Part shown: positions 4,715 to 34,216 of the stretch, in pieces
Position numbering within the stretch: position 1 is the first letter of the stretch
Layout of the letters: the number at the start of each line of letters is the position of its first letter
Source of the DNA: an uncultured Bacteroidota bacterium
GTDB taxonomy: Bacteria; Bacteroidota; Bacteroidia; Bacteroidales; P3
Assembly: GCA_902778925.1 (NCBI GenBank)
Contig: CACYZN010000016.1
Span: forward strand, 1-36,991
Direction: 5' to 3'
Length of the DNA: 36,991 nt
The notes under the pieces: generated by a model
Database searches by the model: none
What the model saw: the letters and a program-made list of their open reading frames with translations, nothing else
Told to the model about the DNA's origin: nothing
Translations under genes and position numbers: made by a program

Positions 4715-4742
4715 AGGTGAAAGGTGAAAGGTGAGAGGTGAT
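4715..4742 (+). repeat. Heptamer array AGGTGAA x4, intergenic
   Basis: Four phase-perfect 7-bp units (AGGTGAA, AGGTGAA, AGGTGAG, AGGTGAT) fill the space between the mscS stop and the DUF4105 start. In this orientation the repeat contains TGA, so it could not be read through. The units resemble Shine-Dalgarno sequence (AGGTGA) and may incidentally bind ribosomes. Confidence 0.8.
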
Positions 4743-4763
4743 ATAATACAAATAATGCTTAAA

Positions 4764-5915
4764 ATGAGGACAACGAAGTACATACTGGTGGCGGTGATGG
4801 TTTTCGCCTTCCACCTATCCCCCTTCACCACAAAAGCGCAAGCCCTGCCGCTGAGCGCCACGGCCACGGCCAGCGTGCTCACCTGCGGTCCCGGCAACGA
4901 CTTCTACACCACCTTCGGCCACTCGGCCATACGCATCACCGATACCGCCATGGGGCTCGACATGGTCTACAACTACGGCACCTTCAACTTCGGCACGCCG
5001 CACTTCTACTGGAAGTTCATGCGCGGGCAGCTCGACTACATGCTCGGGCGCACCACGTTCGACCGCTTCATGGCCGAGTACGCCTACGAGCAACGCGCCG
5101 TGTGGGAGCAGCCGCTCAACTTCACGTCCCAGGAGGTCAACAACCTCTATGTGGCCCTTGAGTGGAACTACCAGCCCGAGAACCGCTACTACCGCTACGA
5201 CTTCTTCCGCGACAACTGCGCCACCCGCGTGCGCGACATGGTGGAGTCCGCCAACGGCAAGCGGGAGATAGAATACGGCGACTGGGAAGACCACAGCTAC
5301 CGCCACTGGCTGCACCAGGCCACCGGTGGGGGCTGCCTCGAATGGTGGACCCTCGGCGTCGACCTGCTGCTGGGCCTGTCGGCCGACCACGTCTGCGACA
5401 AGTCGGAGTCGATGTTCTACCCCATGGCCATGGAGGGGCTATTTGACAATGCCACACGCGGCGGCGACCCGCTCGTCTCGCCCACCCGCGAGCTGCTGCA
5501 GGACACCCGCACGCCGTTGCGACGCAGCTTCCCGCCGATGGTAGTCTTCGCGCTGTTCTTCATGGCAGTGGCGCTGCTCACGTGGCGACGCCTGTGGCCG
5601 CGGTGGGCCGATCGCGTGCTGTTCGTCCTGGCCGGAGTGGTGGGTCTGTTCCTGCTGTTCATGTGGTTTGGCACCGACCACTACTGCACCGCCTGGAACC
5701 TAAACATACTGTGGGCCTCGCCCCTGCTGATACTTATAGCCATCCGCCTCGAGCGCAGTCCGCGCTGGGCCCTGTGGCTGCAGACAGCCTGCTTCCTGGT
5801 GGCTGCCGTATGGGTAGTATGGTGTGGGCTGAGCCTCGCCCTGCTTCCTTTAATTCTTACACTAGCCCTCCGGATCTACCTCACCTTGCGACAGGCGTCG
5901 CGGGGGAGCAGGTAG
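4764..5915 (+). CDS. DUF4105 (Lnb_N-type) envelope protein with C-terminal membrane helices
   Basis: A 383-residue protein from the ATG at 4764; in-frame ATGs at 4755 and 4731 are alternatives. Residues 1-27 form a signal peptide ending TTKAQA. The DUF4105 domain follows (about 30-180). It shows TTFGHSAIRI with a conserved His and FRDNCATRVRD with a conserved Cys, the pair that makes this family a predicted papain-like/NlpC-P60-like thiol enzyme. Residues about 255-375 hold four to five hydrophobic helices. The signal peptide contains FHLSPFT, encoded by three degenerate 7-bp repeats at 4809-4829. The last 40 bp overlap the end of the convergent glycosyltransferase gene. Family members are common next to envelope genes in Bacteroidetes; the substrate is unknown. 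Confidence 0.8.
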   Translation: MRTTKYILVAVMVFAFHLSPFTTKAQALPLSATATASVLTCGPGNDFYTTFGHSAIRITDTAMGLDMVYNYGTFNFGTPHFYWKFMRGQLDYMLGRTTFDRFMAEYAYEQRAVWEQPLNFTSQEVNNLYVALEWNYQPENRYYRYDFFRDNCATRVRDMVESANGKREIEYGDWEDHSYRHWLHQATGGGCLEWWTLGVDLLLGLSADHVCDKSESMFYPMAMEGLFDNATRGGDPLVSPTRELLQDTRTPLRRSFPPMVVFALFFMAVALLTWRRLWPRWADRVLFVLAGVVGLFLLFMWFGTDHYCTAWNLNILWASPLLILIAIRLERSPRWALWLQTACFLVAAVWVVWCGLSLALLPLILTLALRIYLTLRQASRGSR

Positions 5916-6592
5916 TCGCGCCAGCCCGAGCCGGTCTCGTGGCTGAACGAGCCGCAGCCGTCGGCCTTGGCCTGCTGACGGTTGGCATAGCGGCGTTGCA
6001 TCTGGGCCACGCTGCGATACTGGTAGTGGTCGACGGGTATCTGTTCCCTGGCCACCGAGCCCCAGGGATGGGGGTAGCGCCAACGGTCGAGCCACACCAG
6101 CAGCGGCGAGTGGCGCATGAAGCGGCGCTCGGCGCGCATGTGGGGCAAGGCATAGTGCAACCGTTCGCGGTCAGTGGCAAAGTCGCCGCTGAGGAGGCCT
6201 TCGTCGAGGTCCTCGTGGGTTACTACATAGTCGGTGCTCTGCTTCTTGACAGTGCTGCGGTACCAAGGCACGCGGGCCAGGAAGGCGCGCACGTCGCCGG
6301 GGAAGAACTCGTCGGCATCGAGGCGCACGCACCACCAGTCGCCGCAACGCATCTCGTGGCGGAAGGCGCGGAAAGCGCGTGCACGGAGGCCTATGTGGAA
6401 GGGGCCCTCGTAGCGCAGGAAGGGTACGACACGGGGGTCGTTGGCGGCCAGGCGCTGCACGAGCTCCCAGGTGCCGTCGGTGCTGCCGTTGTCGATCACG
6501 ATCACCTTGTCGCTCCAGCGCAGCGCGTCGGGGAGCGAGAGGGCCAGCACATCGGCCTCGTCCTTGACCACCAGCAGACTGTAGACCTTCAT
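5876..6592 (-). CDS. Family 2 glycosyltransferase
   Basis: A 238-residue soluble GT-A enzyme. Motifs in order: N-terminal nucleotide-binding strand MKVYSLLVVKDEADVLAL, the IDNGSTDGT loop (about residues 34-42) and the metal-binding CVRLDADEF (about 86-94). The C-terminal part has Arg/His/Trp-rich sequence such as RYPHPWGS, as in small lipopolysaccharide-modifying transferases. The start at 6592 is chosen because it overlaps the preceding gene's stop by 4 bp (ATGA) and MKVYSLLVV is a typical beginning; the longer open frame upstream is the antisense of the neighbour. It probably adds a sugar to a surface glycan; donor and acceptor are unknown. Its 3-prime end overlaps the convergent DUF4105 gene. 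Confidence 0.8.
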   Translation of the reverse strand: MKVYSLLVVKDEADVLALSLPDALRWSDKVIVIDNGSTDGTWELVQRLAANDPRVVPFLRYEGPFHIGLRARAFRAFRHEMRCGDWWCVRLDADEFFPGDVRAFLARVPWYRSTVKKQSTDYVVTHEDLDEGLLSGDFATDRERLHYALPHMRAERRFMRHSPLLVWLDRWRYPHPWGSVAREQIPVDHYQYRSVAQMQRRYANRQQAKADGCGSFSHETGSGWRDYLLPRDACRKVR

Positions 6593-7284
6593 ATCCTGTC
6601 TCGTTTTTGGGTCAGCTTCTGCCAGTAGTAGCGCAGTGGGTTGGTGTACTTGAGCTGCTTCCAGGGGCGCGACGAGTGGGGCTGGTGCAGCACCTGGGTG
6701 TCGAGCAGCAGGCGGTTGCGGAAGCCGAGGGTGATGGAGCGGTGCGAGATGGCCACGTCGTACCACTGCTTGGTGGGGTCGAGCTGGTCGAAGCTGTAGG
6801 CCCGCAGCAGGGCGTTGGTGAGGAGCGTGCAGCAGAAGCTGAGGCGCTTGGTGGTGTCGACTGCTGTGCCACGGAGGCGGCGGGCGTAGAGGTAGGGAAA
6901 GTTGACGTTGCCGTCGGTATCGACGGTGACAGCGGCCACCATGCCCACGCCGTCCGCTGCGGCTGCCTGCAGGCGGGCCAGGGTGTCGGGGCGCACGGTC
7001 ACGTCGCTCTCGACGATGACCAGATGGGCTCCGGCCTCGAGGGCGCGGCGTTGTGCATCCTGCAGGGTGAGGCGGTAGTTGGGCGAGGGGTGGTCGGTGC
7101 GGTCGGCCCAGTTGACGAGGCGGAAGCCCAAGCGCCGGGCCATCTCGGTCAGCTCGGCGGTGGTCTCGGCGGTGCTGAAGTCGTTGTACACCGTCAGGTC
7201 CACCCCGCCGGCCTGCATCAGGGCGGCTATGGCCTGGCGTGCGGTGTGCATCGAGTCCTTCACTGGCATTATGACGTGGAGCAT
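6589..7284 (-). CDS. Family 2 glycosyltransferase (second of pair)
   Basis: A 231-residue GT-A fold protein beginning MLHVIMPVKDSMHTARQAI. A VYNDFSTAETT loop (about residues 32-42) stands where family members have the DDGS motif, and VIVESDVTVRPDTL (about 88-101) where the DxD motif is expected. The C-terminal part contains KQWYDVAISHRS and a basic tail. It is coupled to the downstream glycosyltransferase by a 4-bp overlap, so the two likely act in one glycan pathway. The upstream gap to the SPOUT methyltransferase is 103 bp and is filled by a 9-bp tandem array, so all three genes may share one transcript. Confidence 0.72.
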   Translation of the reverse strand: MLHVIMPVKDSMHTARQAIAALMQAGGVDLTVYNDFSTAETTAELTEMARRLGFRLVNWADRTDHPSPNYRLTLQDAQRRALEAGAHLVIVESDVTVRPDTLARLQAAAADGVGMVAAVTVDTDGNVNFPYLYARRLRGTAVDTTKRLSFCCTLLTNALLRAYSFDQLDPTKQWYDVAISHRSITLGFRNRLLLDTQVLHQPHSSRPWKQLKYTNPLRYYWQKLTQKRDRI

Positions 7285-7304
7285 CTTTCTTGTTGCTTTA
7301 TATA

Positions 7305-7385
7305 ATAGTTACTATAGATATTATAGTGACTATAGTTCCTATATGTACTATGGTTCCTATATTTGCAATAACTGCGATAGTCCCT
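7305..7385 (-). repeat. 9-bp tandem array, nine units
   Basis: Nine consecutive 9-bp units, each starting ATA or ATG, fill the intergenic space: ATAGTTACT, ATAGATATT, ATAGTGACT, ATAGTTCCT, ATATGTACT, ATGGTTCCT, ATATTTGCA, ATAACTGCG, ATAGTCCCT. The phase is kept although the units vary. It ends 2 bp before the stop codon of the methyltransferase. The AT-rich units stand out in a GC-rich region. Confidence 0.8.
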
Positions 7386-7387
7386 TT

Positions 7388-8209
7388 TTATTGTGCGTGG
7401 ACGAGCTGGAAGAAGGCCACGGCGGCGGCAGCAGCCACGTTGAGCGAGTCGACGCCGCGCTGCATGGGTATGCGTGCCACGTAGTCGGCGCGGCGCAACA
7501 CGGTGTCGCTCAAGCCGTCGCCCTCGGTGCCGAGTACTATGGCCAGGCGTTGCGGCTGGCGCAGGGCGGGGTCGTCGATGGGCAGCGAGCGGTCGGTGAG
7601 TGCCAATGCCACTGTGCTGAAGCCGGCGTCGGCCAGCTGACCGTAGCTGTCGAGGTAGGTCCACGGCAGCTGGAAGACGGTGCCCATGCTGACGCGGCAG
7701 GCGCGGCGGTTCAGGGGGTCGCAGCAGGTGCGGGTGAGGAGCACCGCGTCGATGCCCAAGGCAGCGGCAGCGCGGAAGATGGCGCCCGTGTTCTCGGAGT
7801 TGACCACCCCGTCGAGCACGGCCACCCTGCTGGGTGAAGAGTGAGAGGTGAAAAGCGAGAGCAAATCCTGGACCGACGGTAGCTGCGGGCGCTGCATGGC
7901 ACAGAGGACGCCGCGCGAGAGGGCGTAGCCGGTAAGTTGCTCGAGCACAGGGCGCTCGGCCGTATACACAGGCACTTCGAGCCCGAACTCGTCGCACAGC
8001 TGCTGCACCTGCGAGTGCAAGAACTTGGTCTCGCAAAGCAGCGACACCGGCCTGACGCCGGCGGCCAGGGCGATGCGTATCACCTTCAGGCTCTCGCAGA
8101 TGAAGAGTCCGCGGTCGGCATGCAGGCGGTTGCGCAGCTGTGCCTCGGTGAGGCGTGCATAGGGCTCGAGGGCCTCGCACTGCAGCGTATCAATATAGAC
8201 GACATTCAT
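7388..8209 (-). CDS. SPOUT (TrmH/RlmB-like) RNA 2'-O-ribose methyltransferase
   Basis: A 273-residue SpoU-family enzyme that uses S-adenosylmethionine to methylate ribose in rRNA or tRNA. The N-terminal substrate-binding domain covers residues 1-110 (LFICESLKVIRIAL is typical). The SPOUT domain follows, with motif 1 NSENTGAIFRAA, motif 2 IVLGTEGDGLS and motif 3 IPMQRGVDSLNVAAAAAV, which forms the trefoil knot. The start at 8209 is favoured over the longer frame because a promoter lies at 8215-8244. Between the two domains a linker (LFTSHSSPS) is encoded by four 7-bp repeats at 7833-7860. The exact target nucleotide is unknown. Confidence 0.85.
   Translation of the reverse strand: MNVVYIDTLQCEALEPYARLTEAQLRNRLHADRGLFICESLKVIRIALAAGVRPVSLLCETKFLHSQVQQLCDEFGLEVPVYTAERPVLEQLTGYALSRGVLCAMQRPQLPSVQDLLSLFTSHSSPSRVAVLDGVVNSENTGAIFRAAAALGIDAVLLTRTCCDPLNRRACRVSMGTVFQLPWTYLDSYGQLADAGFSTVALALTDRSLPIDDPALRQPQRLAIVLGTEGDGLSDTVLRRADYVARIPMQRGVDSLNVAAAAAVAFFQLVHAQ
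7833..7860 (-). repeat. Heptamer array x4 inside methyltransferase gene
   Basis: Plus-strand units GGTGAAG, AGTGAGA, GGTGAAA, AGCGAGA form four phase-perfect heptamers. On the coding strand they read as CACC-type repeats, giving the linker LFTSHSSPS between the substrate-binding and SPOUT domains. Same family as the arrays at 4715-4742 and 22798-22825. Confidence 0.75.
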
Positions 8210-8214
8210 GGCTG

Positions 8215-8244
8215 CAAAGATACAAACAAAGCGTCGATACCAAA
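8215..8244 (-). promoter_or_regulatory. Promoter of the SPOUT methyltransferase operon
   Basis: On the minus strand TTTG (8244-8241) is followed after 18 bp by TATCTTTG (8222-8215). The predicted ATG is at 8209, only 5 bp beyond the -7 element, so the mRNA should be leaderless or nearly so. Confidence 0.65.
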
Positions 8245-8276
8245 ATTGCATCGTGCACGACCCTTCGCCGATACCC

Positions 8277-8344
8277 CACCGTACCATGTCCGACCGTGGT
8301 CGGTGTTGGTACGGTGTTGGTGCGGACTTGGTTCGGACTTGGTA
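8277..8344. repeat. Nested hairpin joined to an 11-bp tandem array
   Basis: A perfect 10-bp stem (CACCGTACCA at 8277-8286 with TGGTACGGTG at 8307-8316) encloses a symmetric TGT/TGT internal loop and a 6-bp inner stem (CCGACC/GGTCGG). From 8301 four 11-bp units follow: CGGTGTTGGTA, CGGTGTTGGTG, CGGACTTGGTT, CGGACTTGGTA. The right arm of the hairpin is part of the first two units. The remaining sequence to 8484 shows no gene. Confidence 0.8.
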
Positions 8345-8484
8345 AGGTCTAGATGCTGACCTACAGGCAGTTAGATCACTTCAGAGTACCTAAAGCACAT
8401 TGACACAGAGCGTTATATGTCTTTTATGGATGTTTGGGGCTACAATAGGCCGGGCGAAAAAAATTGAAAAAAGGTGCGAAAAAA

Positions 8485-8515
8485 TTTGCCAGAATGAAAA
8501 AAGGTTGTATATTTG
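8485..8515 (+). promoter_or_regulatory. Promoter of the bacterioferritin-like gene
   Basis: TTTG at 8485-8488, then 19 bp, then TATATTTG at 8508-8515: an excellent Bacteroidetes consensus match. The ATG lies at 8560, giving an AT-rich leader of about 40 nt. Confidence 0.75.
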
Positions 8516-8559
8516 CATCGTGAACGACATAAATAATTAACCAATAAAAAACAGACCTT

Positions 8560-9015: not shown

Positions 9016-9034
9016 CAATCAATCATTTAAAAGG

Positions 9035-9130
9035 AAAAGGGGTTATGGGGAATGTGCTCGCTCGTCGTTAAAGACAAATGCTTATCAAACAGGCACCGAT
9101 GTCTTTAACAAAACTCCCCTAATCCCTTTG
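9035..9130 (+). terminator. Two-tier hairpin between bacterioferritin-like gene and gpx
   Basis: An outer imperfect stem (purine-rich AAAAGGGGTTATGGGG at 9035-9050 with the pyrimidine-rich arm at 9113-9130) encloses a perfect 10-bp inner stem, GTTAAAGACA (9067-9076) with TGTCTTTAAC (9100-9109). There is no clear U-tract, so it may stabilise the upstream mRNA or act as an attenuator rather than as a simple terminator. The peroxidase ATG is 26 bp further on. Confidence 0.5.
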
Positions 9131-9155
9131 TTTATAATCCAAAAAACCAAACACT

Positions 9156-9698: not shown

Positions 9699-9707
9699 CG
9701 CCACACC

Positions 9708-11236: not shown

Positions 11237-11261
11237 TGAAAGGGAGTGAAAAGTAGAGAAA
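11222..11261 (+). repeat. 10-bp tandem array x4
   Basis: GGGAGTAAAA, AGTAGTGAAA, GGGAGTGAAA and AGTAGAGAAA form four units in perfect phase. They cover the last codons and stop of the radical SAM gene and run to 4 bp before the transporter start codon at 11266. Confidence 0.7.
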
Positions 11262-12359: not shown

Positions 12360-15300
12360 ATGGGAAAGATATACAATTTGTTCAAAGAGAGCCTGGTGGC
12401 TGTTACCGACTACTATATGCTGCTGGTGGAGGAGACAAAGAGCGAGCGATTGGTGGGCAGCACCAACGAGTGGGTGCTCGACAACTACTACATGATCAGC
12501 GAGCAGGAAAAGGTGATGAAGGTGGAGCTTAAGAGTGTGGAAAAAGGCGAATGGAGAGTTGAGAAGAGCCGCATACAAGTGCTGTGGAACCTGCTGGAAA
12601 GCTACCTGCGCCGCTGCCACTTCCAGGTTGACAAGGCACTGCTGTTTCGCTACCTGACCCAGGTGCAGCAACGACAGAAAGACTACCTTTCCTACCCCGA
12701 AGTCACAGCCCTGCTACCATTGGCCAAAGCCGTGCTTATAAGCGAGCTGGCTGCGCTATGCCGTCGGCTCGACGAACAGAAAGCCTACCTGTTCCAGCCA
12801 ACAGACAAGAGCCAGGCCGACATGGAGTACCTGAACAAGGCCGCCATGGACAACCTGTTGATGATGAACATCTTCAATTCGCTCAAGAAGCTCACCAAAC
12901 TTCCCATGGCCGAACTGCTCGACGCCGTAAGCTTCTCGGAACGCATGCTTAAAGGCGAGAAAGCCGACATGTACGACCAAATGCAGGACAAGACGAAAGA
13001 GGACTACCGTGGCAAGGTGGTGCGCCTCTGCCGTAAGCAGAAAGCAAAGGAGTACGACTTTGTGAAGAAGTTGGTAGCCACTGCCGACGAACGCGGAGAG
13101 CATGTGGGTTGGCAGCTCTTCCCTCCCAAGCGCTGGAATGCACGCGCCCACTTGTATATCACCATAGTGGTACTGGCATCACTGACGCTGGCCTTCGGCT
13201 TCGCAGCATGTGGCACTTGGAACACGGGGCTCTCGTGGATTACCGCCGTTCTCACCGTCATTATGTGCGTTCCAATGAGCCAGGTGGTCATCGACCTCTT
13301 CAACTGGCTGCTGGGCAAACTGCATCATCCCACGGGCACCTTCAAACTGAAGTTCAAAGACGGCCTTATTCCCGACGAATACACTACCATGGTGATTATG
13401 CCCACCATACTGAAAAACAAAGCCAAAGTCGAGGAATTGCTGGGTGTGCTGGAAGTCTACTACTTGAGCAACCTAAACCGCGGAAGCGGCCACAACTTCA
13501 GCGCGGCACATGGCCAGAACCTCTACTACACGCTGGTGGGCGACGCCGCTGCCTACAAAGAAGAGGATGCCCCATGGGACGACGAGGTGGTCGAGGCAGG
13601 CCTTGCCAAGGTGAAAGAACTCAACGAGAAGTACGGTGCACCGATATTCAACTTTGTATACCGCCGCCGCGCCTGGAGCGACGGCGAGCGCACTTGGCTC
13701 GGCCACGAGCGCAAACGTGGTGCCATACTCCACTTCAACGACCTCATTCTCGGACAAACCAGCGAGGCTGACAAGCAGAAGCGCTTCCGCTGCGAGACAA
13801 TTAGTCAGCACGACTACTCCATCAAGTTCATCATCACCCTCGACACCGATACCGAGTTGGTACTCTACTCGGCCCAGAAACTAATAGGCGCCATGGCGCA
13901 CCCACTGAACCAAGCTGTGCTGTCGCCCGACGGCCGTCGGGTAGACCGTGGCTATGGCATCATGCAGCCCCGCGTAAACGTCGACGTCGAAGTGACCAAC
14001 AAGAGCCGCTATGCCCAGCTTATGGCTGGCCTAGGCGGCTTGGATGTCTACACCACCGCAAGCTTCGAACTATACCAAGACATCTTCAACGAAGGTTCCT
14101 TCTGCGGCAAAGGCATCTACGACCTTCGTGTGTTCCAGCAGGTGCTCAAAGGTACATTCCCCGAGAACCTCATCCTCAGCCACGACCTGCTTGAAGGCTG
14201 TCACATACGCTGCGGCCTCATCAACGATGTGGAGGTGTTCGACGACAACCCCAGCAACTACATCGACGACGCCAAGCGCCACCACCGCTGGACACGCGGC
14301 GACTGGCAGATTATTTCCTGGCTTGGCCGTCGAGTGCGCAACGAACGCGGCGAGCGCGTCAAGAACCAGGTGAACACTATAGGGCGCTGGAAGATATTCG
14401 ACAATCTGCGCCGCTCGATGCTGAGTCTGGCACTGATGGTGGTTCTGATGATAGGATTTAGCGGTCTTGTCAACATACACCCGGTCTGGTTCCTGGTAGC
14501 GGCATTAGTGGCGGTGGCCTCACCCATAGTGTTCTTCATCATAGGACAAATCACCACCCTGCCACGTATCGGCAAGCGCTACAAATACTACATGACCCTT
14601 ATGCGCGGTTTCCGCGTCATCTTCTACCGCTCGCTGGTGCAGTTCGCCCTGCTTCCCAAAGAGGCTTGGATGTACACCGACGCAGCTATACGAGCCTGCT
14701 ACCGCATGTGGTTCTCTCACCGCGACCTGCTGGCATGGATTACCAGCGACGAGGCCGCCAAGAGCACCAAAGGCACCCTCGGCGACTACCTGGGCAAGTT
14801 CTGGTTCAACTACGTGGCATCGGCAGTGCTTGTCGCGCTGTTCGCCATCGGCTTTGGCAACTGGGTCGACCTGGCCGCATTGCTCTTCTGCGTAGTGGTG
14901 TGGTGTGCCGCACCATTCATAATGTATCGGCTCGGCAAAAAATTCCCACAGGACAAGAAAAGCCTCAACGAGAAAGAGACCGAGGAAGTGCGCCAGCTGG
15001 CCAAGGATACATGGCATTTCTTCGACAGCCTCATCACCGAGGAAAACAACTGGCTCGTCCCCGACAACTATCAAGTGGGACGCGAACCGCTGACCGACTA
15101 CAAGACCTCGCCTACCAATATCGGATACTCGCTGACTGCCGTCATAAGCGCCGCCGAGTTGGGCTTTATTACCCACAAAGAAGCCATCCAACGGCTTGAG
15201 CATATCATCGACACCGTCATGCAGCTCGAGAAATGGAACGGACATCTCTTCAACTGGTACTCTGTAAGCACCCTCAAGGCTCTGCCCAACTTCTTTATCT

Positions 15301-21099: not shown

Positions 21100-21644
21100 C
21101 ACACAAGCTGACAACCGAGGAGATGCACCGCCTGACGGTGGAGGAGTTCCGCGAGAGCGAGAAACTGCCGCTGACGGTGGTGCTCGACAATGTGCGGTCG
21201 CTGAATAATATCGGGTCGGTGTTCCGCACGAGCGACGCTTTCCGTGTGGAGCACATAGCCCTGTGCGGCATCACGGCTACGCCGCCGCACCGCGAGATAC
21301 ACAAGACGGCCCTCGGCGCCGAGGAGAGCGTGGCGTGGAGCTACCACGAGGACACCGCCGAGTGCGTGCGTGCTCTCAAGGAGCAGGGCTACAAGGTGTA
21401 TGCCGTGGAGATAGCGCACGACAGTGTTAAATTAGGAATGAGTAATGAGGAATTAGGAATTGAGGGACAACCTGTCGCTATTGTATTTGGTAATGAGTTG
21501 GAAGGTGTGCGAGAGGATGTGATGGAGCTCTGCGACGGCTTTCTCGAGATACCACAGACGGGCACTAAGCACTCGCTCAACGTCAGCTGCGCTGCCGCCA
21601 TCGTCATCTGGGAGATGTTTAAGCAGCTAAGAGTTAATAGTTAA
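21096..21644 (+). CDS. TrmH-family RNA 2'-O-methyltransferase
   Basis: A 182-residue SpoU-type enzyme, catalytic domain only. Motif 1 is [13 protein letters not shown], motif 2 IVFGNELEGV and motif 3 IPQTGTKHSLNVSCAAAIVIWE. The start at 21096 overlaps the stop of the TonB-domain lipoprotein by 4 bp. Between motifs 1 and 2 the stretch KLGMSNEELGIEG is encoded by five AT-rich 7-bp units (21429-21464) with a base composition unlike the rest of the gene. The last codons (LRVNS, then stop) are also repeat-encoded by a second array. The tRNA or rRNA target is not known. The first 59 codons have a diverged copy in the chimera at 19937. Confidence 0.88.
   Translation: MTHKLTTEEMHRLTVEEFRESEKLPLTVVLDNVRSLNNIGSVFRTSDAFRVEHIALCGITATPPHREIHKTALGAEESVAWSYHEDTAECVRALKEQGYKVYAVEIAHDSVKLGMSNEELGIEGQPVAIVFGNELEGVREDVMELCDGFLEIPQTGTKHSLNVSCAAAIVIWEMFKQLRVNS
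21429..21464 (+). repeat. AT-rich heptamer array inside trmH-type gene
   Basis: Units AAATTAG, GAATGAG, TAATGAG, GAATTAG and GAATTGAG (the last with one extra base). It is a compositional island in a GC-rich gene. It is translated as KLGMSNEELGIEG, in a position where a surface loop is expected. Confidence 0.7.
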
Positions 21645-21655
21645 GAATTAAGAGT
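21628..21655 (+). repeat. Heptamer array TAAGAGT x4 at trmH 3' end
   Basis: TAAGAGT, TAATAGT, TAAGAAT and TAAGAGT in perfect phase. The third unit supplies the stop codon of the trmH-type gene. The next gene starts 2 bp after the array, at 21657-21659. Confidence 0.75.
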
Positions 21656-21656
21656 T

Positions 21657-22013
21657 ATGACCAAAGAAGAACGTATGGAGAAAGCCCGCGCACTCCACAA
21701 GCAGGGCTGCAACTGCTGCCAGTCGGTGGTGATGGCCTATGCCGACCGGTTGCCTATCGAAGCCAAAGACGCCATGAATGTGGCCGCTCCCTTCGGTCGC
21801 GGCCTCGCCGGCACCCGCGAGGTGTGCGGCTGCGTCAGCGGCATGGCTATGGTCTGTGGCCTCACCGGCCACAACACCGACGTGCGCCCGCTGATAGAGA
21901 AGTTCCGCGCCGAAGAGGGCGACATAGTCTGCGGACGCCTGCTGGCACAGGGCAAGAAGCCCTGCGGCGAGATGGTGGCCGACGCCGCCGGCCTGCTGGC
22001 CGAAATTGTATGA
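21657..22013 (+). CDS. C_GCAxxG_C_C family protein
   Basis: A 118-residue cysteine-rich protein of the family named for its cysteine pattern, found mostly in anaerobes and thought to be a redox or metal-binding protein. Visible cysteines: C18, C20 and C21 in KQGCNCCQSVV, C57/C59 in REVCGCVSG, C67 in MVCGLTG, and two more in the C-terminal half (DIVCGR, KPCGEM). The Gly-rich centre FGRGLAGTREVCGC is typical. It begins 12 bp after the trmH-type gene and probably shares its transcript. Its biochemical role is unproven in the family. Confidence 0.85.
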   Translation: MTKEERMEKARALHKQGCNCCQSVVMAYADRLPIEAKDAMNVAAPFGRGLAGTREVCGCVSGMAMVCGLTGHNTDVRPLIEKFRAEEGDIVCGRLLAQGKKPCGEMVADAAGLLAEIV

Positions 22014-22064: not shown

Positions 22065-23177
22065 ATGCCCAAACGCAAGATAATCAACGACCCAGTATAT
22101 GACGGGTTCTTGAGTGTCGACGACCCTGTGATACTGCAGGTCATCGAGCACCCCTACTTCCAGCGCCAGCGCCGCATCAAGCAGCTGGGCTTGACCTACC
22201 TGGTGTACCCCGGCGCCATGCACACTCGCTTCAGCCACATGCTCGGCGCACTGAATCTGATGAAAAGGGCGCTCGATGTACTGAAGCTGAAGGGTGTGGA
22301 GATAACCGACGACGAGTGTCGTGGGGCCAAGCTGGCTATCCTGCTGCACGACATCGGCCACGGCCCCTTCTCGCACACATCCGAGCGGGTGCTGGTCGAC
22401 GTGCCGCACGAGGAGATTACGCTACTGATGATGAAGCGTATCAATGAAGAAATGAATGGTGCGCTTGACACAGCCATTGCCATCTTCTCCAACACCTACC
22501 ACAAGCATTTCCTCCACCAGCTGGTCTCCAGCCAGCTCGACATGGACCGCCTCGACTACCTGGGGCGCGACTCGTTCTTCACTGGCGTCAGCGAGGGTAT
22601 CGTGGGCACCGACCGCATCATCAGCATGCTTAATGTGCACGACGACGAGCTGGTGGTTGACGAGAAGGGCATCTATAGCGTGGAGAAGTTCATCATCAGC
22701 CGCCGCCTGATGTACTGGCAGGTGTATATGCACAAGACCGTCATCGCCGCCGACCAGTTGTTGCTCGGCATCCTGCGGCGGGCCCGCGACCTTGATGTTT
22801 CACCTTTCACCTTTCACCTCTCACCTTTTGACCTCGACCGCTTTGCCGAGGTGGACGACGACGACGTGATGGTGGCCGTGAAGCACTGGCAGCACTCGGA
22901 CGACGAGATTCTGAGCACCCTCTGTCGCAATCTGGTCAACCGTCGTCTGCCGGCCATCCGGTTCAGCAACGAGCCATTCGAAGGTGTCGAATGCGACTAC
23001 TTCCACGGTACCGGCGAACTGCACAACCGCTCCTACGACTTCAACGACCAAGAGATTAAGGTCCTCTATAAAGACGGCCGCTGCCTGCCTATCAGCGAGG
23101 CCAGCGACCAGCTCGACCGCCATTTCCTGGAGAAGCAAGTAACCAAATATTATCATTATTTTCCGAAAGAACAATGA
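22065..23177 (+). CDS. HD-domain phosphohydrolase (SAMHD1/dGTPase-like)
   Basis: A 370-residue metal-dependent hydrolase. The H...HD...D ligands are visible: H53/H58 in AMHTRFSHMLGAL, H95-D96 in LLHDIGHGPFSH and the Asp in LDMDRLDYLGRD. This layout is that of the YdhJ/SAMHD1-like group, whose members act on deoxynucleotide triphosphates or other phosphoesters; the substrate here is not assigned. Near residues 246-254 SPFTFHLSPF interrupts the sequence. It is encoded by four TTTCACC-type 7-bp units (22798-22825) at a poorly conserved region between helices. The gene is followed 38 bp later by mpl. Confidence 0.87.
   Translation: MPKRKIINDPVYDGFLSVDDPVILQVIEHPYFQRQRRIKQLGLTYLVYPGAMHTRFSHMLGALNLMKRALDVLKLKGVEITDDECRGAKLAILLHDIGHGPFSHTSERVLVDVPHEEITLLMMKRINEEMNGALDTAIAIFSNTYHKHFLHQLVSSQLDMDRLDYLGRDSFFTGVSEGIVGTDRIISMLNVHDDELVVDEKGIYSVEKFIISRRLMYWQVYMHKTVIAADQLLLGILRRARDLDVSPFTFHLSPFDLDRFAEVDDDDVMVAVKHWQHSDDEILSTLCRNLVNRRLPAIRFSNEPFEGVECDYFHGTGELHNRSYDFNDQEIKVLYKDGRCLPISEASDQLDRHFLEKQVTKYYHYFPKEQ
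22798..22825 (+). repeat. Heptamer array TTTCACC x4 inside HD gene
   Basis: TTTCACC, TTTCACC, TTTCACC and TCTCACC, followed by a degenerate TTTTGACC. The array reads in frame as FTFHLSPF. The reverse complement (GGTGAAA) would contain TGA, so only this orientation can be tolerated in a gene. Confidence 0.85.
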
Positions 23178-25096: not shown

Positions 25097-25300
25097 GGTA
25101 AATGTGCCGCGCATATATGCGGGGTCATGAAACGGCCCGGTAAATGCGCCCCGCATCTATGCGAGGTCGATTTTCAGTCGAGCAATGCTCTCCGCATCTA
25201 TGCGGGGTCGATTTTCAGCCGTGTAATGCTCACCGCATATATGCGCGGTCGATTTTCAGCCCGGAAGTGCGCCCCGCATCGATGCGCGGTGAAATTGCAT
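25097..25300 (+). repeat. Five 41-bp repeats with GCAT(N)2ATGC palindromes
   Basis: Five copies of a unit of about 41 bp. Each contains a 10-bp palindrome, GCATATATGC or GCATCTATGC/GCATCGATGC, starting at 25111, 25153, 25194, 25235 and 25276 (steps of 42, 41, 41 and 41). Three copies share the spacer GGTCGATTTTCAG, and most begin near AATG(C/T). The first and last copies are more divergent. Because 41 is not a multiple of 3, the open frame running through them shifts meaning at each unit and is not credible as a gene. No other gene is seen between 25038 and 25345. Confidence 0.85.
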
Positions 25301-25810: not shown

Positions 25811-26968
25811 ATGAGCAGACAGATACATATAGGAAGCCTGACGTTGGGCGGGGGAGCGCCCGTCCGCGTGCAGAGCATGACGAATACCGACACGATGGAC
25901 ACCAAGGCCACCGTGGAGCAGGCGCTGAGGATGGTGGAGGCCGGTTGCGAACTGGTGCGCATCACGGCGCCCGACGTGAAGGCCGCCGAGAACCTCGGCC
26001 GCATCAAGGAGGAGCTGCTGCGCCGCGGCTGCGAGGTGCCGCTGGTGGCCGACATACACTTCAACCCCAAGGCCGCCGAGGTGGCCGCCACGCTGGTGGA
26101 GAAGGTGCGAGTCAACCCCGGCAACTACACCGACCGCAATACAGGAAAGTGGAGAGTGGAGAGTGGAGAGTGGAGAGCGGAAGACGAGAAAGCATATCAG
26201 GAGGAAATAGAACGGATAGGGGAACGGATGTCCTCGCTCATCGACATCTGCAAGCGGCACCACACCGCCATGCGCATCGGCACCAACCACGGCTCGCTGT
26301 CGGAGCGCATCATGAGTCGCTACGGCAACACGCCCGAGGGCATGGCGCAGAGCGCGCTGGAGTTCGCGCAGGTGTGCGAGGCGCAGGACTACCACGACCT
26401 CGTCTTCTCCATGAAAGCCAGCAACGTCAAGGTCATGGTGGACAGCACACGCCTCTTCGTGCAGAAGATGCACGCCCTCGGCATGGACTACCCCATCCAC
26501 CTCGGCGTCACCGAGGCGGGCGACGGCATGCAGGGCCGCCTCAAGAGTGCTGCCGGCATCGGCGCACTGCTGCTCGACGGCATCGGCGACACGGTGCGCG
26601 TCAGCCTCACCGAAGACCCCGAGGCCGAGATGCCAATCGCCTACGACATCCTGCAGGCCGTCGGCGCCCGCATCACACAGCCCGAATACATCGCCTGCCC
26701 CTCCTGCGGTCGCACGCAGTACGACATACAGCGCGCCCTGAAGGAGATAAAGGAGAAGACCCGCCATCTGGTGGGCGTGAAGATAGGCGTGATGGGCTGC
26801 ATCGTCAACGGCCCCGGCGAGATGGCCGACGCCGACTACGGCTACGTGGGCTCCGGCCACGGAAAGATCACCCTCTACAAAGGCAAAGAAATCGTCAAGC
26901 GCGACATCGACCAGAGAGATGCCGTCGACGAATTAGTCAAATTCATAGAAAACGACCGTAAACAATGA
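25811..26968 (+). CDS. ispG: 4-hydroxy-3-methylbut-2-enyl diphosphate synthase, short form
   Basis: A 385-residue [4Fe-4S] enzyme of the MEP isoprenoid pathway. The N-terminal TIM-barrel half shows VQSMTNTDTMDTKATV, RITAPDVKAAEN, ADIHFNPKAA, RIGTNHGSLS and LGVTEAGDG. The C-terminal cluster domain shows CPSCGRTQYD and GCIVNGPGEMADAD with the three cluster cysteines. The barrel sequence is of the kind found in Bacteroidetes IspG, but those proteins usually carry an extra central domain (about 600+ residues in total). Here ILQAVGARITQPEYIACPSC runs directly into the cluster domain. Five 7-bp repeats at 26144-26178 encode the loop GKWRVESGEWRAED. The stop overlaps the next start (ATGA). Confidence 0.93.
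   Translation: MSRQIHIGSLTLGGGAPVRVQSMTNTDTMDTKATVEQALRMVEAGCELVRITAPDVKAAENLGRIKEELLRRGCEVPLVADIHFNPKAAEVAATLVEKVRVNPGNYTDRNTGKWRVESGEWRAEDEKAYQEEIERIGERMSSLIDICKRHHTAMRIGTNHGSLSERIMSRYGNTPEGMAQSALEFAQVCEAQDYHDLVFSMKASNVKVMVDSTRLFVQKMHALGMDYPIHLGVTEAGDGMQGRLKSAAGIGALLLDGIGDTVRVSLTEDPEAEMPIAYDILQAVGARITQPEYIACPSCGRTQYDIQRALKEIKEKTRHLVGVKIGVMGCIVNGPGEMADADYGYVGSGHGKITLYKGKEIVKRDIDQRDAVDELVKFIENDRKQ
26144..26178 (+). repeat. Heptamer array GGAGAGT x5 inside ispG
   Basis: GGAAAGT, GGAGAGT, GGAGAGT, GGAGAGT and GGAGAGC, phase-perfect. Read in frame as GKWRVESGEWRA, between the barrel strand VRVNPGNYTD and the helix KAYQEEIERIGERM. Same unit (opposite strand) as the 29-copy array at 34014-34216. 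Confidence 0.88.
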
Positions 26969-28869: not shown

Positions 28870-30668
28870 TCTATAGGCATATTGCTCGCCACAATACTGC
28901 GCGGGTCGATACCGTCGACCTCGATGTGGCATTGCGCCAGCCGCTGACGCCGGCCGACCCTGACAGGCTGCCTGTGCCATTGGCCATCGGCGCAGTAGTA
29001 GACATCGAAGCTCTTGGCCGGCGACAGATAGAAGACATCTGCCTCGGTAGCGGTGGTCAGCGTGCTGTCCAGACGGGCCATTGCAACCAGTATGTCGGCC
29101 CCTTTGGGACTGCACTGGGCATGCAGGTAGTACACCGGTGCATCGGGAGCCAACTGGCTGCGCTCTACAAGCGTGTTGGTGTCGTCGGTGGTGCTAACCA
29201 CACGTCCCGCACGCAGATTGATGTAATGCTCTATGTCGTGGGTCTGATAGCTGCAGAGGAATGCCATGCCCGGTGTGTTGTGCAGCTCGCCGGTGTATAC
29301 TATTGCGTTGTGGGGCAGACGGTCGAAACAGCCCTCCTGCGCCATGCGGTCTATAATCTCCATACGCTGGCCGCTCTTGTGCCATTCGCGAGCTATGTGC
29401 TCGTTGGCATAGCCAGTGATGACGGCCGCCATCAGGAACAGTATAGCCCACACCCCCCGGACGACGATACCATTGCCGAACACCTTGAACGATGCCACTA
29501 TGACCAACGCGATAGCCAGCATGACGAAAAGGTAGGAGTAGAAGGTAGTTACATATCCCGGGAGACATGAGCTCAGCTCGCCGTTGTATTTGGTCGCGAC
29601 AGCCACCAGCAGATGGGCCGCAAAGGCTCCCACCACCGATACCACCAAGCCCACGGTGACCTGCCACCACGACAACTTGGCAAACCACCGGCGGCCTGTT
29701 ATCCACCAAAGCAGTGCTGTCTGCAGCAGGGCGGTAATCCACACAAGCGCCGACGCATGGGTGAACACCCGCATCAGTCCGTTGCTGTGGCCGCCCTCGA
29801 GCAGGGAATTGGCAGCTATAAGCTCCTTGTTGCCGAAGTAGTTCTGCGTAGGCAAGGCTCCACGGGTGCACCTGAGCACGATATTGACAAAGCCCTTGAA
29901 GCTGAACTTCTGCGGGTCGAACGAACTGCCGTCGTAGAACACCAGGTCGGGCGTCGACGCCAGCAGGTACTGCCTGTAGCCGAAATAGCATCCCACATAA
30001 AGCACCGCCATGCCGGCCAACGGCAACACATCGCGCCACAGGGTCTTGTCGCCCAAGCGGAAGCGGTGATGCGCCATGATGGCAATGGCGAACATGAAAG
30101 CGTATATGAGGTAGGTCTCGTAGAACAGGAAGCACACCAGCATGACGATAGCCGACAGCCACACACGCCAGTAGCCGCCGCGCTCGGTATAGCGCAGGTA
30201 CAGCAACAGACCGGCCATGAAGAGTATGGTGCTGAAGGCAAAGTAGAAGGGATAGGCGATGGTGGGCATGTGCATGTTGGGAGTGACCGAGAGACCCCAC
30301 ACCAGCAGCAACAGAACCAAAGCCCCCAGGCCGCGCGAGCGCAGCATGCGCGCCACCGTGTAGGCAAACATGCCATAGCAGGCCATCAGCGTGATATACT
30401 GCACCGCCTTTGTCCACACAAAGCTGTCGAACAGGTAGGGCACATAGTAGAACACCTTGGTGACGAGAAAGTAGAAGCGGCCGGCACCATGGGCGTATAT
30501 CTGCGCGTCGGTCATCCAGTTGCTGAACGGCGTCCTCGCGGTGAGGAAGTACTGGAAGTCGTCGTCGGTGGTGACGCCTATGCCAAAGAACATGCGCAGG
30601 CTGAGCAGCACGGTGGCCACATAGGCCGCCACTACCACCAGGTTCTCTTTCTGTCGGGCGTTCAGCAT
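28866..30668 (-). CDS. Polytopic GtrII-like glycosylation protein
   Basis: A 600-residue membrane protein with about ten to twelve hydrophobic helices in residues 10-430 and a soluble C-terminal part. Early features resemble GT-C/GtrII-type glucosyltransferases: a TDDDFQYFLTARTPF acidic motif after the first helix and a FYETYLIYAFMFAIA helix. These enzymes move a sugar from a bactoprenol carrier to a surface glycan outside the membrane. The gene directly upstream encodes a GtrB-like bactoprenol glycosyltransferase (7-bp overlap), which supports a two-component glycan-modifying system. The acceptor glycan is unknown. Confidence 0.7.
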   Translation of the reverse strand: MLNARQKENLVVVAAYVATVLLSLRMFFGIGVTTDDDFQYFLTARTPFSNWMTDAQIYAHGAGRFYFLVTKVFYYVPYLFDSFVWTKAVQYITLMACYGMFAYTVARMLRSRGLGALVLLLLVWGLSVTPNMHMPTIAYPFYFAFSTILFMAGLLLYLRYTERGGYWRVWLSAIVMLVCFLFYETYLIYAFMFAIAIMAHHRFRLGDKTLWRDVLPLAGMAVLYVGCYFGYRQYLLASTPDLVFYDGSSFDPQKFSFKGFVNIVLRCTRGALPTQNYFGNKELIAANSLLEGGHSNGLMRVFTHASALVWITALLQTALLWWITGRRWFAKLSWWQVTVGLVVSVVGAFAAHLLVAVATKYNGELSSCLPGYVTTFYSYLFVMLAIALVIVASFKVFGNGIVVRGVWAILFLMAAVITGYANEHIAREWHKSGQRMEIIDRMAQEGCFDRLPHNAIVYTGELHNTPGMAFLCSYQTHDIEHYINLRAGRVVSTTDDTNTLVERSQLAPDAPVYYLHAQCSPKGADILVAMARLDSTLTTATEADVFYLSPAKSFDVYYCADGQWHRQPVRVGRRQRLAQCHIEVDGIDPRSIVASNMPID

Positions 30669-31588
30669 CGGTCGTTATCGTCTTTGAGTATGTAGATGGG
30701 GCGACCCTTCACCTCGTCGAATATAAGGCCTATATAGTAGCCAATCAGCCCCATCACCAGCAGCAATATGCAGGCGAAGGCGCTCAGGAAGATAATGAGG
30801 GTGGTGTAGCCGCCGACAGGCCGCTGCACTATCCACATCACAATCGAGTACACTATCAGCGCCACGCTGAGCAGACCGAAAGCCAGCCCCCCGTACAGTC
30901 CCATCCGCAGCGGTGCCTTCGAGAACGAGGCTATGGCACCCAGCGAAAGCCGCACGAGCCGGTGCAACGAGTACTTGCTCTGTCCGGCAGCCCGCTCGGG
31001 GGCGTCGAAGGCGAGACTGCGGCGCTCGAAGCCCACCGTCTGTATGAATCCCCGCAGGAAGCGCGTCCGCTCGCGGTATTGGGTGCGCAATACCTGCGCC
31101 ACCCGGACCGACACAAGGAAGAAGTCGCTGGCGTTGGGCTCGAGCGAACAATCGGCCATACGGTTTATAATACGGTAGAAAGCCTTCGAGGTGAGGCGGC
31201 GCAGCCAGCCCCCGTCGGCACGCTCGCGGCGCACCATGGTAACCACGTCGGCCCCTTCGCCATAGGCGCGCAGCATGTCGGGCAAGAGCGCCGGCGGATG
31301 CTGCAGGTCGGCGTCCATGCACACCACCGCGTCGCCTGTGGCGTGGTCTATGCCGGCCAGCATGGCTGCCTCGTGGCCGAAGTTGCGCGAAAAATGGAGC
31401 GTCCGCACCCTGCTGTCGGCGGCGGCCAGCCGTTCCATGATGGCGGCACTGCCGTCGCTGCTGCCGTCGTCGACCATGAGCAGCTCCACATCGCAGTCCA
31501 AGCCGGCTGCCACACGGGTCACCTCGCCATAGAACTGCTCCAGGACCTGCTCCTCGTTGTAGACCGAAACCACCAATGTGCACTTCAT
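30662..31588 (-). CDS. GtrB/DPM1-like bactoprenol glycosyltransferase
   Basis: A 308-residue family 2 glycosyltransferase. Motifs: LVVSVYNEEQVLEQF, MVDDGSSDGSAAIM (about residues 38-51), FSRNFGHEAAMLAGIDHA, the metal-binding VVCMDADLQHPP (about 88-99) and the family QSKYSLHRLVRLSLGAI stretch before two C-terminal membrane helices (about 225-290). Relatives transfer glucose or GlcNAc from a nucleotide sugar to undecaprenyl phosphate at the inner membrane. The start at 31588 is preferred; an in-frame ATG at 31626 would add [13 protein letters not shown]. The gene overlaps the GtrII-like gene by 7 bp and follows rarA by 28 bp. Confidence 0.88.
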   Translation of the reverse strand: MKCTLVVSVYNEEQVLEQFYGEVTRVAAGLDCDVELLMVDDGSSDGSAAIMERLAAADSRVRTLHFSRNFGHEAAMLAGIDHATGDAVVCMDADLQHPPALLPDMLRAYGEGADVVTMVRRERADGGWLRRLTSKAFYRIINRMADCSLEPNASDFFLVSVRVAQVLRTQYRERTRFLRGFIQTVGFERRSLAFDAPERAAGQSKYSLHRLVRLSLGAIASFSKAPLRMGLYGGLAFGLLSVALIVYSIVMWIVQRPVGGYTTLIIFLSAFACILLLVMGLIGYYIGLIFDEVKGRPIYILKDDNDRC

Positions 31589-31616
31589 ACCTCTATAGCC
31601 TTTATTTGTCAAATCT

Positions 31617-32879
31617 CTAATAGCCATACTTAGCACCCCACCGCTGACGCAGCAGGTTGCGTGTGTCGTTCTCGCGGGGCGTGTTGCCGGGCTCGTAGAA
31701 GCGGGTTCCCTCCAGCCCCTGCGGCAGGTACTCCTGCTCGGCAAAGTTGCCCTCGAAGTCGTGGGCATACTTGTAGCCGTCGTGGTAGCCAAGCTCCTTC
31801 ATCAGCTTGGTGGGGGCGTTGCGGATGTGCAGCGGCACCGGCAGGTCGCCCGTGCGGCGTATCATGCTTGTGGCGTTCTCCAGCGCCATATACGTGGCAT
31901 TGCTCTTCACCGAGCAGGCCAGGTAGCAGGCACACTGCGACAGGTTGATGCGGCACTCGGGGTAGCCTATCTTGCTCACCGCGTCGAAGGTGGCGTTGGC
32001 CAGCAGCAGCGCGTTGGGGTTGGCGTTGCCTATGTCCTCGCTGGCGAAGATAAGCATGCGACGGGCTATGAAGAGGGGGTCTTCCCCACCCTCTATCATG
32101 CGCGCCAGCCAGTACACAGCCCCGTTGGGGTCGCTGCCCCGCATGCTCTTGATGAAGGCCGAGATGACGTCGTAGTGCATCTCGCCACCCTTGTCGTAGT
32201 AGGCCAGGTTCTGCTGCACCACCGAGGTGGCAGTCTTGTTGTCGATGACTATCGGGGTGTTGTCATTCCGGTTGCTCCTATTCACCACCAGTTCTATGGC
32301 ATTGAGCAGCTTGCGGGCATCGCCGCCGCTTATGCGCATCAGGGCCTCGTCCTCTTTCACCTCGACGGCAACGCCCTGCGAAGCGTAGTGCTTCACGGCC
32401 GACGCTATCAGCTGCCGCATGTCGCCCTCGCCAAACTCCTTGAGCACAAAGACCTGACACCGGCTCAGCAGTGCCGAGATAACCTCGAACGAGGGGTTCT
32501 CGGTAGTGGCGCCTATCAGGGTGATGGTGCCACGCTCGACCGCACCCAGCAGCGAGTCCTGCTGCGCCTTGTTGAAACGGTGTATCTCGTCTATGAACAG
32601 TATCGCACCGTCCTCCTCCTGCGCCTTGTTTATCACCTCGCGCACCTCCTTCACACCGCTGCTTATGGCGCTCAGCGTGTGGAAGGGGCGGTGCAGCGTG
32701 TTGCTGATAATCATAGCCAGCGTCGTCTTGCCTATACCCGGCGGGCCCCAGAATATCATGCTCGGTATCTGTCCGCCCTCTATCAATGTGCGAAGAACAG
32801 CACCCTGCCCAACAAGGTGCTGTTGTCCGATATACTCGTCCAAGCTCTGCGGCCTCAGTATCTCCGCCAACGGGGTCAT
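31617..32879 (-). CDS. rarA: Replication-associated recombination protein A (AAA+ ATPase)
   Basis: A 420-residue MgsA/RarA/WRNIP1-family protein that acts at stalled replication forks. Order: [19 protein letters not shown], Walker [13 protein letters not shown] (about 44-55), Walker [17 protein letters not shown], sensor 1 [10 protein letters not shown], sensor 2 [14 protein letters not shown], then the tetramerisation domain with [18 protein letters not shown]-like sequence (here [21 protein letters not shown]). Length and motifs are typical. Its start overlaps the queA stop by 4 bp. Confidence 0.94.
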
Positions 32880-33931
32880 ACAATCAGCATCGCGTCGCCA
32901 TAGGTCGAAAAGCGGTATTTCTCCTTGATGGCGGTCTGGTAAGCCTTCATCATCAGCTCGGGACCCGCAAAGGCGCTCGCCATTATGAACTGCGTGCTCA
33001 TCGAGTGGTGCAGGTTGGTAACCATCATGTCGGCAATGGTGAAATCATACGGCGGGAAGATGAACTTGTTGGTCCACCCGTCGTAGGGGAATATCTTGCC
33101 CGGTATGGTCACTGCGCTCTCCAGCGCCCGCATCGTCGTAGTACCCACGGCACACACATGGTGGCCAGCCGCCTTGGTGGCCTCGATTGTACGGCACACC
33201 TCCTCGCTCAGGTGCATCTCCTCGGCATCGGCGCGGTGCTTCGACAGGTCCTCGACCTCGATCGACTTGAACTCGCCCATGCCGCAGTGCACTGTCACCT
33301 CGTTCCACTTCACGCCCTTGATCTCGAGGCGCTTCAGCAGCTCGCGGCTGAAATGCAGACCTGCCGTCGGCGCTGCCACCGAGCCCTCTACCTTGGCGTA
33401 GATGGTCTGGTAGTCCTCGGCGTCCTTCTTCTCTATGTCGCGCAGGCGGCGCAGCTCGTCGGGCAGCGGCGTGCGGCCCATACCCTTCACTATCTTGATG
33501 AACTCCTCGTGCGTACCGTCGAACAAAAACCTAATCGTGCGTCCGCGGCTCGTCGTGTTGTCCACCACCTCGGCCACCAGCGCATCGTTGGTGCCGAAAT
33601 ACAGTTTGTTGCCAATCCTTATCTTGCGTGCAGGATCCACTATCACATCCCACAGCCGCATCTCTTCGTTCAACTCGCGCAGCAGCAGCACCTCGATCCT
33701 CGCACCAGTCTTCTCCTTCTCGCCCTCCAGCAGCGCCGGAAACACTCGCGTATTGTTAGCCACCACCACATCGCCCTCGTCCACATACTCTATGAAATCC
33801 TTGAACACACGATGTTCCAGCTCACCGCTGTCGCGGTGCACCACCATCATGCGCGCATCGTCGCGGTTTCGCGTCGGCTTCTCCGCTATCAACTCCTTGG
33901 GCAGATTAAATCTGAACTGTGATAATTTCAT
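32876..33931 (-). CDS. queA: S-adenosylmethionine:tRNA ribosyltransferase-isomerase
   Basis: A 351-residue enzyme of queuosine synthesis. It moves the ribosyl part of SAM to 7-aminomethyl-7-deazaguanine in the wobble position of tRNAs. Signatures: [32 protein letters not shown], the central [18 protein letters not shown], the [13 protein letters not shown] stretch and the C-terminal [19 protein letters not shown]. Length matches the family. It is the first gene of the minus-strand run queA-rarA-gtrB-like-gtrII-like. About 80 bp upstream begins the 29-unit heptamer array; no convincing promoter was found between them. Confidence 0.95.
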
Positions 33932-34013
33932 CTCTCTCTGGCTTTTTTAAAACAATGTTATAACGTAAATAATCTCAATTATTGTACACCCAACCAAAAA
34001 TAAATAAAAAAAA

Positions 34014-34216
34014 CTCCCCGCTCTCCACTCTCCACTCCCCACTCTCCACTCTCCACTCTCCGCTCTCCGCTCTCCACTCCCCGCTCCCCACTCCCCACTC
34101 TCCACTCCCCACTCTCCACTCTCCACTCCCCACTCTCCGCTCTCCACTCCCCACTCTCCGCTCTCCACTCTCCGCTCTCCACTCCCAACTCTCCACTCCC
34201 CACTCTCCTCTCCCCT
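34014..34216. repeat. 29-unit heptamer array CTCTCCA
   Basis: Twenty-nine consecutive 7-bp units with no indel. Almost all are one of four variants, CTCTCCA, CTCCCCA, CTCTCCG and CTCCCCG, differing only by transitions at positions 4 and 7 (exceptions CTCCCAA at 34182, and CTCTCCT and CTCCCCT at the right end). The array is open in all six frames, but only because the unit lacks stop codons, so no protein is called. It separates queA from the RsmI-family gene and abuts palindromic element B. Confidence 0.95.

Follow-up and report, generated by a model that had tools for sequence, protein, structure and literature searches.

Heptanucleotide tandem repeats of cyanobacteria are known as STRR sequences. 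Here we describe arrays of 7-bp units in an uncultured member of the Bacteroidales, starting from one whole contig of 36,991 nucleotides (CACYZN010000016.1, our C16; hereafter the window) that belongs to a 2.23-Mb genome in 54 contigs, 93% complete. These arrays are dispersed, favour a size of about four units, carry words that differ between sister species, have appeared repeatedly at one site and often replace a short part of their host gene. They resemble the STRR sequences in being tandem heptamers, with a period-7 excess that is also present in 38 cyanobacterial loci, and differ from them in phylum and in words.

Heptamer repeats have been described in Xanthomonas (GGGAATC) and Nostoc (GGGGA(C/T)T) (Rehm et al., 2015; PMC4692102), in a report that also mentions heptanucleotides of Calothrix. 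In the parts of that report considered here, the repeats share with ours the 7-bp unit, the presence on both strands, the genome-wide dispersal, the preference for four units and, in Xanthomonas, frequent inverted pairs. They differ in being G-rich and read as G-quadruplexes, which 1 of 77 arrays of our genome could form (four GGG tracts). Moreover, several word families coexist here, sister species use different words, and roughly half of our arrays of at least 24 bp lie in called genes, against 7–11% in xanthomonads and 32% in Nostoc. The TAACTGA direct repeats of Beggiatoaceae, many of which lie just upstream of start codons (MacGregor, 2015; PMC4679880), are likewise heptamer arrays found in Bacteroidetes and cyanobacteria, a few of them in open reading frames (ORFs). 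However, they consist of one word, absent from the 11 distinct units of our first sample of the genome, and are mostly intergenic, and the parts of that report covered here describe neither replacement nor repeated acquisition at one codon.

Rickettsia palindromic elements, as presented in part of a review (PMC10969869), are also short and sit in frame in unrelated genes, and some of our arrays have comparable inverted arms, but these elements measure about 150 bp and encode a conserved peptide, whereas our arrays measure about 30 bp and are read in several frames. Finally, DRT10, according to the part of its description used here (PMC12632851), makes tandem-repeat DNA, but needs a reverse transcriptase, which is unmatched in our genome. 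The class of dispersed bacterial heptamer repeats is already known. Our search of the open-access literature, which does not prove absence, found no account of heptamer arrays replacing gene parts in Bacteroidales, of a species-specific word at fixed codons or of a four-unit peak without G-quadruplex potential.

Periodicity and preferred size

Tandem arrays were counted by period (lag score of at least 14) in 21 stretches (437 kb) of the genome, with two Markov shuffles as control. We detected 20 arrays of period 7, 63 of period 11, 12 of period 14, 38 of period 22 and 10 of period 24, while each remaining period between 2 and 30 gave 0–2 arrays and the shuffles none. Because these counts stand above those of other periods and of the shuffles, the period-7 excess is real; period 11, overlooked in an initial annotation of the window that had drawn attention to the heptamers, is commoner still. 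When periods 5–15 were counted, period 7 accounted for 49 arrays in unnamed relatives (20 stretches), for 11 in other Bacteroidales (17 loci, with 6 at period 14 and up to 4 elsewhere) and for 29 in the 38 cyanobacterial loci (24 at period 14, up to 9 elsewhere), and for none in seven Prochlorococcus loci or in ten loci of Fimbriimonadales, Armatimonadota and others. Genomes and loci are designated below by G and L numbers, respectively; the relatives L052–L059 (IspG identity 77–92%) are metagenome-assembled genomes of uncultured Bacteroidetes/Bacteroidales, some of them from rumen, reticulum and horse faeces.

Our first sample of the genome, composed of the window and contig starts, contains 32 period-7 arrays, 23 of which have 4.0–4.99 copies and two 3.0–3.99, in line with the initial remark that three arrays of the window have exactly four units. 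In the ispG neighbourhood of the relatives the same classes hold 36 and 14 of 63 arrays, which are not independent because homologous sites recur there. When these are pooled with later samples, in part selected at sites with known arrays, 4.0–4.99 copies are present in 39 of 77 arrays of the genome and in 106 of 212 in the overall set of relatives. Arrays of at least six units number 12 of 45 in the second sample of the genome versus 1 of 32 in the first, and one shuffle of each set gave a single array. In simulations, the detection rate of three-unit arrays was 87% at 3% divergence, 76% at 6% and 55% at 10%; since most of them are found, the dip at three units cannot be put down to poor detection when divergence is low.

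Selection for a function of about four units (a G-quadruplex, binding of protein or RNA, control of translation near starts), as proposed for Xanthomonas and Nostoc and for Beggiatoaceae, would account for the size preference itself. It also agrees with the position of some arrays that abut start codons and with the distribution of the 69 arrays of at least 24 bp in the genome: 32 lie between genes and 4 across a gene end, whereas non-coding sequence makes up 21% (the sample was partly chosen at known arrays, and the genes were called by a rough script that takes 79% of the sequence as coding, with at least one doubtful call, L165 7970). However, the other 33 arrays lie within called genes, housekeeping enzymes included, and the same peak is seen when the count is confined to arrays containing no more than one GG tract, with 7 of 9 arrays in the first sample and 16 of 34 around ispG in the relatives, so that we consider such selection improbable. 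Because these low-GG arrays keep the peak, the quadruplex link, as put forward in the part of PMC4692102 considered here, does not explain it: the published explanation of the four-unit preference is contradicted for this lineage, and we reject the G-quadruplex as its cause.

Reading-frame arithmetic, by which growth from one to four units adds 21 bp, was also found insufficient, since 23 of the 32 intergenic arrays measure 25–42 bp as well. Of the 65 arrays that lie either within called genes or between them, 54 are 24–42 bp long. In the relatives, period-8 arrays, rarer than those of period 7, measure 28–40 bp in 27 of 34 cases, and this single favoured size may be a sign that the overall length is kept and not the number of units. 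Octamer arrays of mostly about 30–40 bp (TCAAGCAA, CACTCAGT, AGGGTTAA) occur in some relatives (L180, L188–L191, L151 and L176), and their preferred total length is close to that of the heptamers.

Arrays in the IspG loop and in other genes

The ispG gene of the window (25811–26968, plus strand; TIGR00612) hosts a GGAGAGT array of five units (26144–26181, plus strand) at about codons 112–123, in a loop before the helix 123–150, and served as an insertion trap across relatives. Most array-free orthologues of the genus read like GGCAAGCTGGAGTTCACC in this loop. By contrast with these, G000 carries GGAGAGT, G025 GGAAAGT, G001 GGTCAGT and G035 GGAGAAC, L055 has a mixed GGAAAGT-like array, and heptamers of other kinds occupy this loop in the distant Bacteroidales L060 and L075. 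With the loop left out, an ispG tree of 38 sequences demands five changes for its five heptamer alleles; as this FastTree phylogeny is midpoint-rooted, based on one gene and includes one genome twice (L029/L053), recombination may have contributed. In both genomes whose pools were counted (G000 and G001) the word in the loop is the genome's own pool word, and G025 and G035 have a second array of their own IspG word in the single stretch sampled of each. GC-rich palindromes are also present in frame at heptamer-taking loops, in the IspG of L140 (G007) and L074 and at the SPOUT site of L204 (G009).

An AlphaFold2 model of the window IspG (21 sequences; mean predicted local distance difference test, pLDDT, 89.7) scores lowest over the ten residues 111–120 (pLDDT 55), which form the array loop. 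The proposal of the initial annotation that the arrays fall in linkers or surface loops thus holds for IspG; it fails for the DUF4105 protein (Lnb_N, PF13387), in which a short or decayed TTTCACC-type array (4809–4829, minus strand) occupies a signal-peptide-like N-terminus. The 20-kb stretches of the relatives gave no match for DUF4105 or for the large ORF described below and one other locus for the SPOUT gene, so orthologues of DUF4105 and SPOUT were searched separately. Five relatives have heptamer arrays at the same DUF4105 codons, TTTCACC in L226 and L227 and other words in L228, L229 and L232. The SpoU/SPOUT methyltransferase gene (PF00588, minus strand) contains four imperfect heptamers, GGTGAAG AGTGAGA GGTGAAA AGCGAGA (7833–7860, plus strand), and is 18 bp longer at this site than 25 of 29 orthologues.

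A TTTCACC array of four units (22798–22826, minus strand) lies in a gene for an HD-domain hydrolase (PF19276). L142 has the same word at this site, L054, L132 and L140 have TTTCAAC, and seven others have an unrelated 32-bp stretch; in L136 and L138 the sequence is array-like but degraded, with a peptide pattern that is largely kept (by eye). The TrmH-type (SpoU) methyltransferase gene bears an AATTAGG/AATGAGG array (21429–21464, plus strand) common to the window and L054. Its site measures 23 bp without array in four relatives and 32 bp in the window, and L134 and L146 have 32 bp of unrelated sequence. The match to this gene is split in L137 and L144 by about 660–790 bp near the codons of the window's array.

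The sharing or decay of arrays across several species in the HD gene could suggest that the peptides are old conserved protein segments rather than insertions. This explanation is contradicted for IspG, the CCA-adding enzyme and Mpl by orthologues that lack the array or carry other words at the same codons, and by the five changes in IspG, and we find it scarcely credible.

The presence of arrays within several genes is borne out, and they are in frame as had been claimed, although in many cases they replace a short stretch instead of being added to the gene. Judged by nucleotide flanks against the commonest comparators, 14 bp are replaced by 38 in ispG, 32 by 29 in the HD gene and 23 by 32 in the TrmH-type gene. 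Likewise, 31 bp are replaced by 37 in a gene of G001 that we take from its sequence to encode Mpl, with flanks about 90% identical up to the border, and 18 by 36 at L147 7409–7444. All these differences in length are multiples of 3; SPOUT and the CCA-adding enzyme were compared codon-wise and are thus in frame by construction. The gene for the CCA-adding enzyme of G000 has two inverted pairs. Its site 2 measures at most 57 bp in 14 of 20 aligned relatives versus 108 bp in G000, and at site 1 four relatives (G001, G036, G056 and G025) have extra residues of other sequence, which in G001 read as a pair of its own word, judging from the peptide and the GGTCAGT match. Heptamer units in genes are read in different frames. 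Other array-bearing proteins matched NCBIfam models above cut-offs (MtaB, Mfd, an ABC ATPase, PriA and CoaBC) or below them (the CCA-adding enzyme and RecG, the latter clipped by the stretch end); within this set the orthologue comparison covers the CCA-adding enzyme.

Outside these sites, an AGGTGAA array of four units (4715–4742, plus strand; Tandem Repeats Finder, TRF, score 47; 19 of 21 lag-7 matches) is intergenic, just upstream of the DUF4105 gene. A GTTAAGA-type array (21628–21657, plus strand) had been placed between genes, which is not simply so: it runs over the end of the TrmH-type gene, stop codon included, right up to the next ATG. Repeats of this same type occupy the site in L132, L137, L138 and L140 as well. 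The nine arrays first listed in the window are real in six clear cases. Relatives back two weaker ones, the imperfect SPOUT array (13 of 21 lag-7 matches; TRF assigns period 14) and the decayed DUF4105 array, whose 8 of 14 matches are weak by themselves, being attained by 854 of 36,970 window stretches of equal length. The ninth, a proposed decayed copy in the very large ORF annotated as a glucan synthase (12534–12568, plus strand), is unproven: it is missing from the TRF rows, and its 15 of 28 matches are attained by 425 of 36,956 stretches, both background counts including stretches that lie within the other arrays.

A long array of the window, 29 units of GTGGAGA/GTGGGGA (34014–34216, minus strand; TRF score 267), is intergenic and adjoins an 11-bp palindromic element. 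This dispersed element (window 3348–3440 and 34226–34322; also L002, L010, L014, L152 and others) has arms built of 11-bp repeats, about four in number, with GTAGTTCTTAT... and its inverse on either side of TTTAAA. A second family, TCGTTGTACTA, also occurs; near-identical copies are present at many sites, and 837 kb contain 151 period-11 arrays. A 41-bp tandem repeat of 3.6 copies lies upstream of ispG (25143–25290).

Word pools and the origin of the arrays

The units of the genome mostly represent a small number of related families (GTGAAAG, GTGGAGA, AATTAGG, GTTAAGA, GGAGAAC and ATTCRAA) with many dispersed sites. This finding disagrees with the initial view of different sequences that are not one mobile sequence. 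Three consecutive RTKRRRR words give 306 overlapping matches in the 2.23-Mb genome; the reversed pattern gives 243, but differs so little from the motif that it is not a clean null. The share of RTKRRRR exceeds that of letter-shuffled units in the genome (55% of 11 distinct units vs 27%), in the genus (32% of 34 vs 13%) and in cyanobacteria (24% of 25 vs 11%), and is not clearly enriched in other Bacteroidales (27% of 15 vs 14%, attained by 37 of 300 shuffles); this enrichment carries little weight because the motif was picked on this genome.

The dominant word differs between sister species. Exact triples of a unit were counted among 59 genomes; their positions overlap and are therefore not array counts. 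GGAGAGT triples are present in 8 genomes (67 positions in G000, 43 in G007, 19 in G019, 14 in G002, 8 in G012 and none in G001), and GGTCAGT triples in 6 (23 in G001, up to 3 in the others, none in G000). TTTCACC triples are present in 14 (66 in G036, 17 in G002, 13 in G000) and TTTCAAC triples in 27 (52 in G037). Within the GGTGAAA family, the variant A6G accounts for 8 of 15 substitutions and is found in 6 of 8 arrays. Neighbours of the same unit within 40 bp are inverted in 17 cases and direct in 6, and a further 17 neighbours have an unrelated unit. The initial interpretation is thus supported in part, by the period-7 excess and by different words at the same site across species; this inverted pairing it had overlooked. 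A GGTGCGG motif is shared by the spacers between inverted heptamer arrays of three genomes (L179 8971–8987 and 19182–19200, L165 8064–8082, L190 9089–9106).

We lean towards the view that the arrays are a dispersed, self-propagating class of heptamers akin to those of Xanthomonas, Nostoc and Beggiatoaceae, copied from a pool by templated short-patch repair or template switching and then selected for frame. Each genome would hold a pool of a few dominant, related words, from which pieces of typically 28–35 bp, singly or as two inverted copies around a short loop, would be copied to new places, templated short-patch repair or template switching being the likeliest route. In genes the patch would often displace 14–32 bp of the target. 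At two sites, IspG and CCA site 2, it may begin at a short match to the unit: several species' arrays begin where the empty site already has AAG-TGG or GTGG (by eye), which fits template switching at microhomology. Whole heptamers would afterwards be gained or lost while substitution decays the units, and the survivors in genes would be copies that keep the frame, without stop codon, in tolerant segments.

According to a rival explanation, each array grew in place by local replication slippage from a chance seed of one or two units, like microsatellites. The variation of about one unit between species in the array at the end of the TrmH-type gene is as expected from slippage, and so is CCA site 2, where G004 has two CACTGAA-type units and G001 five. 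We nonetheless regard slippage as the source as unlikely, though deserving consideration: three-unit arrays are scarce in the first sample although mostly detectable, each genome has few related words, IspG carries the word of the pool in both genomes whose pools were counted, and the replacement in Mpl is clean. Copying from a pool is favoured over local seeds because words are shared genome-wide, A6G is shared between arrays, the pool word recurs at the IspG loop and Mpl is cleanly replaced.

Alternatively, the chromosome could capture heptamer cDNA made by a telomerase-like defence reverse transcriptase of the DRT10 type. Synthesis of tandem-repeat DNA from a short RNA template, as given in the part of PMC12632851 used here, would yield a species-specific word. 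However, several word families per genome would demand several templates, and RVT_1 is unmatched in our 93% complete genome while 3 of 14 control genomes match, which makes this source very improbable, and we rejected it. Movement of the REP type by a RAYT/Y1 transposase was likewise rejected, as PF01797 has no match in the same genome.

Several observations weigh against copying from a pool. The frequent variant A5G of the GTGGAGA family (10 cases) is restricted to one array, and no donor–recipient pair with the same variant order turned up for solo heptamer arrays, although none was sought. Pool and site do not always correspond: G025 and G007 have TTTCAAC at the HD site but only 3 and 2 exact-triple positions of it; G036, with the largest TTTCACC count, has no array there; G007 and G002, despite their GGAGAGT positions, have a GC-rich palindrome and an empty site in IspG, respectively. 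With the TrmH comparator L139 (22 bp), the difference at the nucleotide flanks is 10 bp, the intergenic arrays L138 19495 and L144 19516 look, compared with the window, like insertions with little lost, and the +21 bp between G004 and G001 at CCA site 2 indicates local expansion too. Every comparison is between species, each represented by one genome, mostly in draft assemblies.

Significance of the heptamer arrays

In this lineage the four-unit preference stands without G-quadruplex potential. Different words at the same codon in sister species amount to a natural assay of array birth, and IspG, the CCA-adding enzyme and DUF4105 are insertion traps that could be read across thousands of genomes. 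A broader and doubtful conjecture is that Bacteroidales and many cyanobacteria share an unrecognised activity of DNA synthesis or repair, which produces patches of about 31 bp in 7-bp steps with the dominant word of the genome and is indifferent to G-quadruplex ability. Such an activity would steadily feed new loops and signal peptides into essential genes and be the shared origin of the heptamer excess in prokaryotes. If the arrays are indeed copied, they would represent a route by which repeat DNA becomes protein sequence, repeatedly, in essential enzymes.

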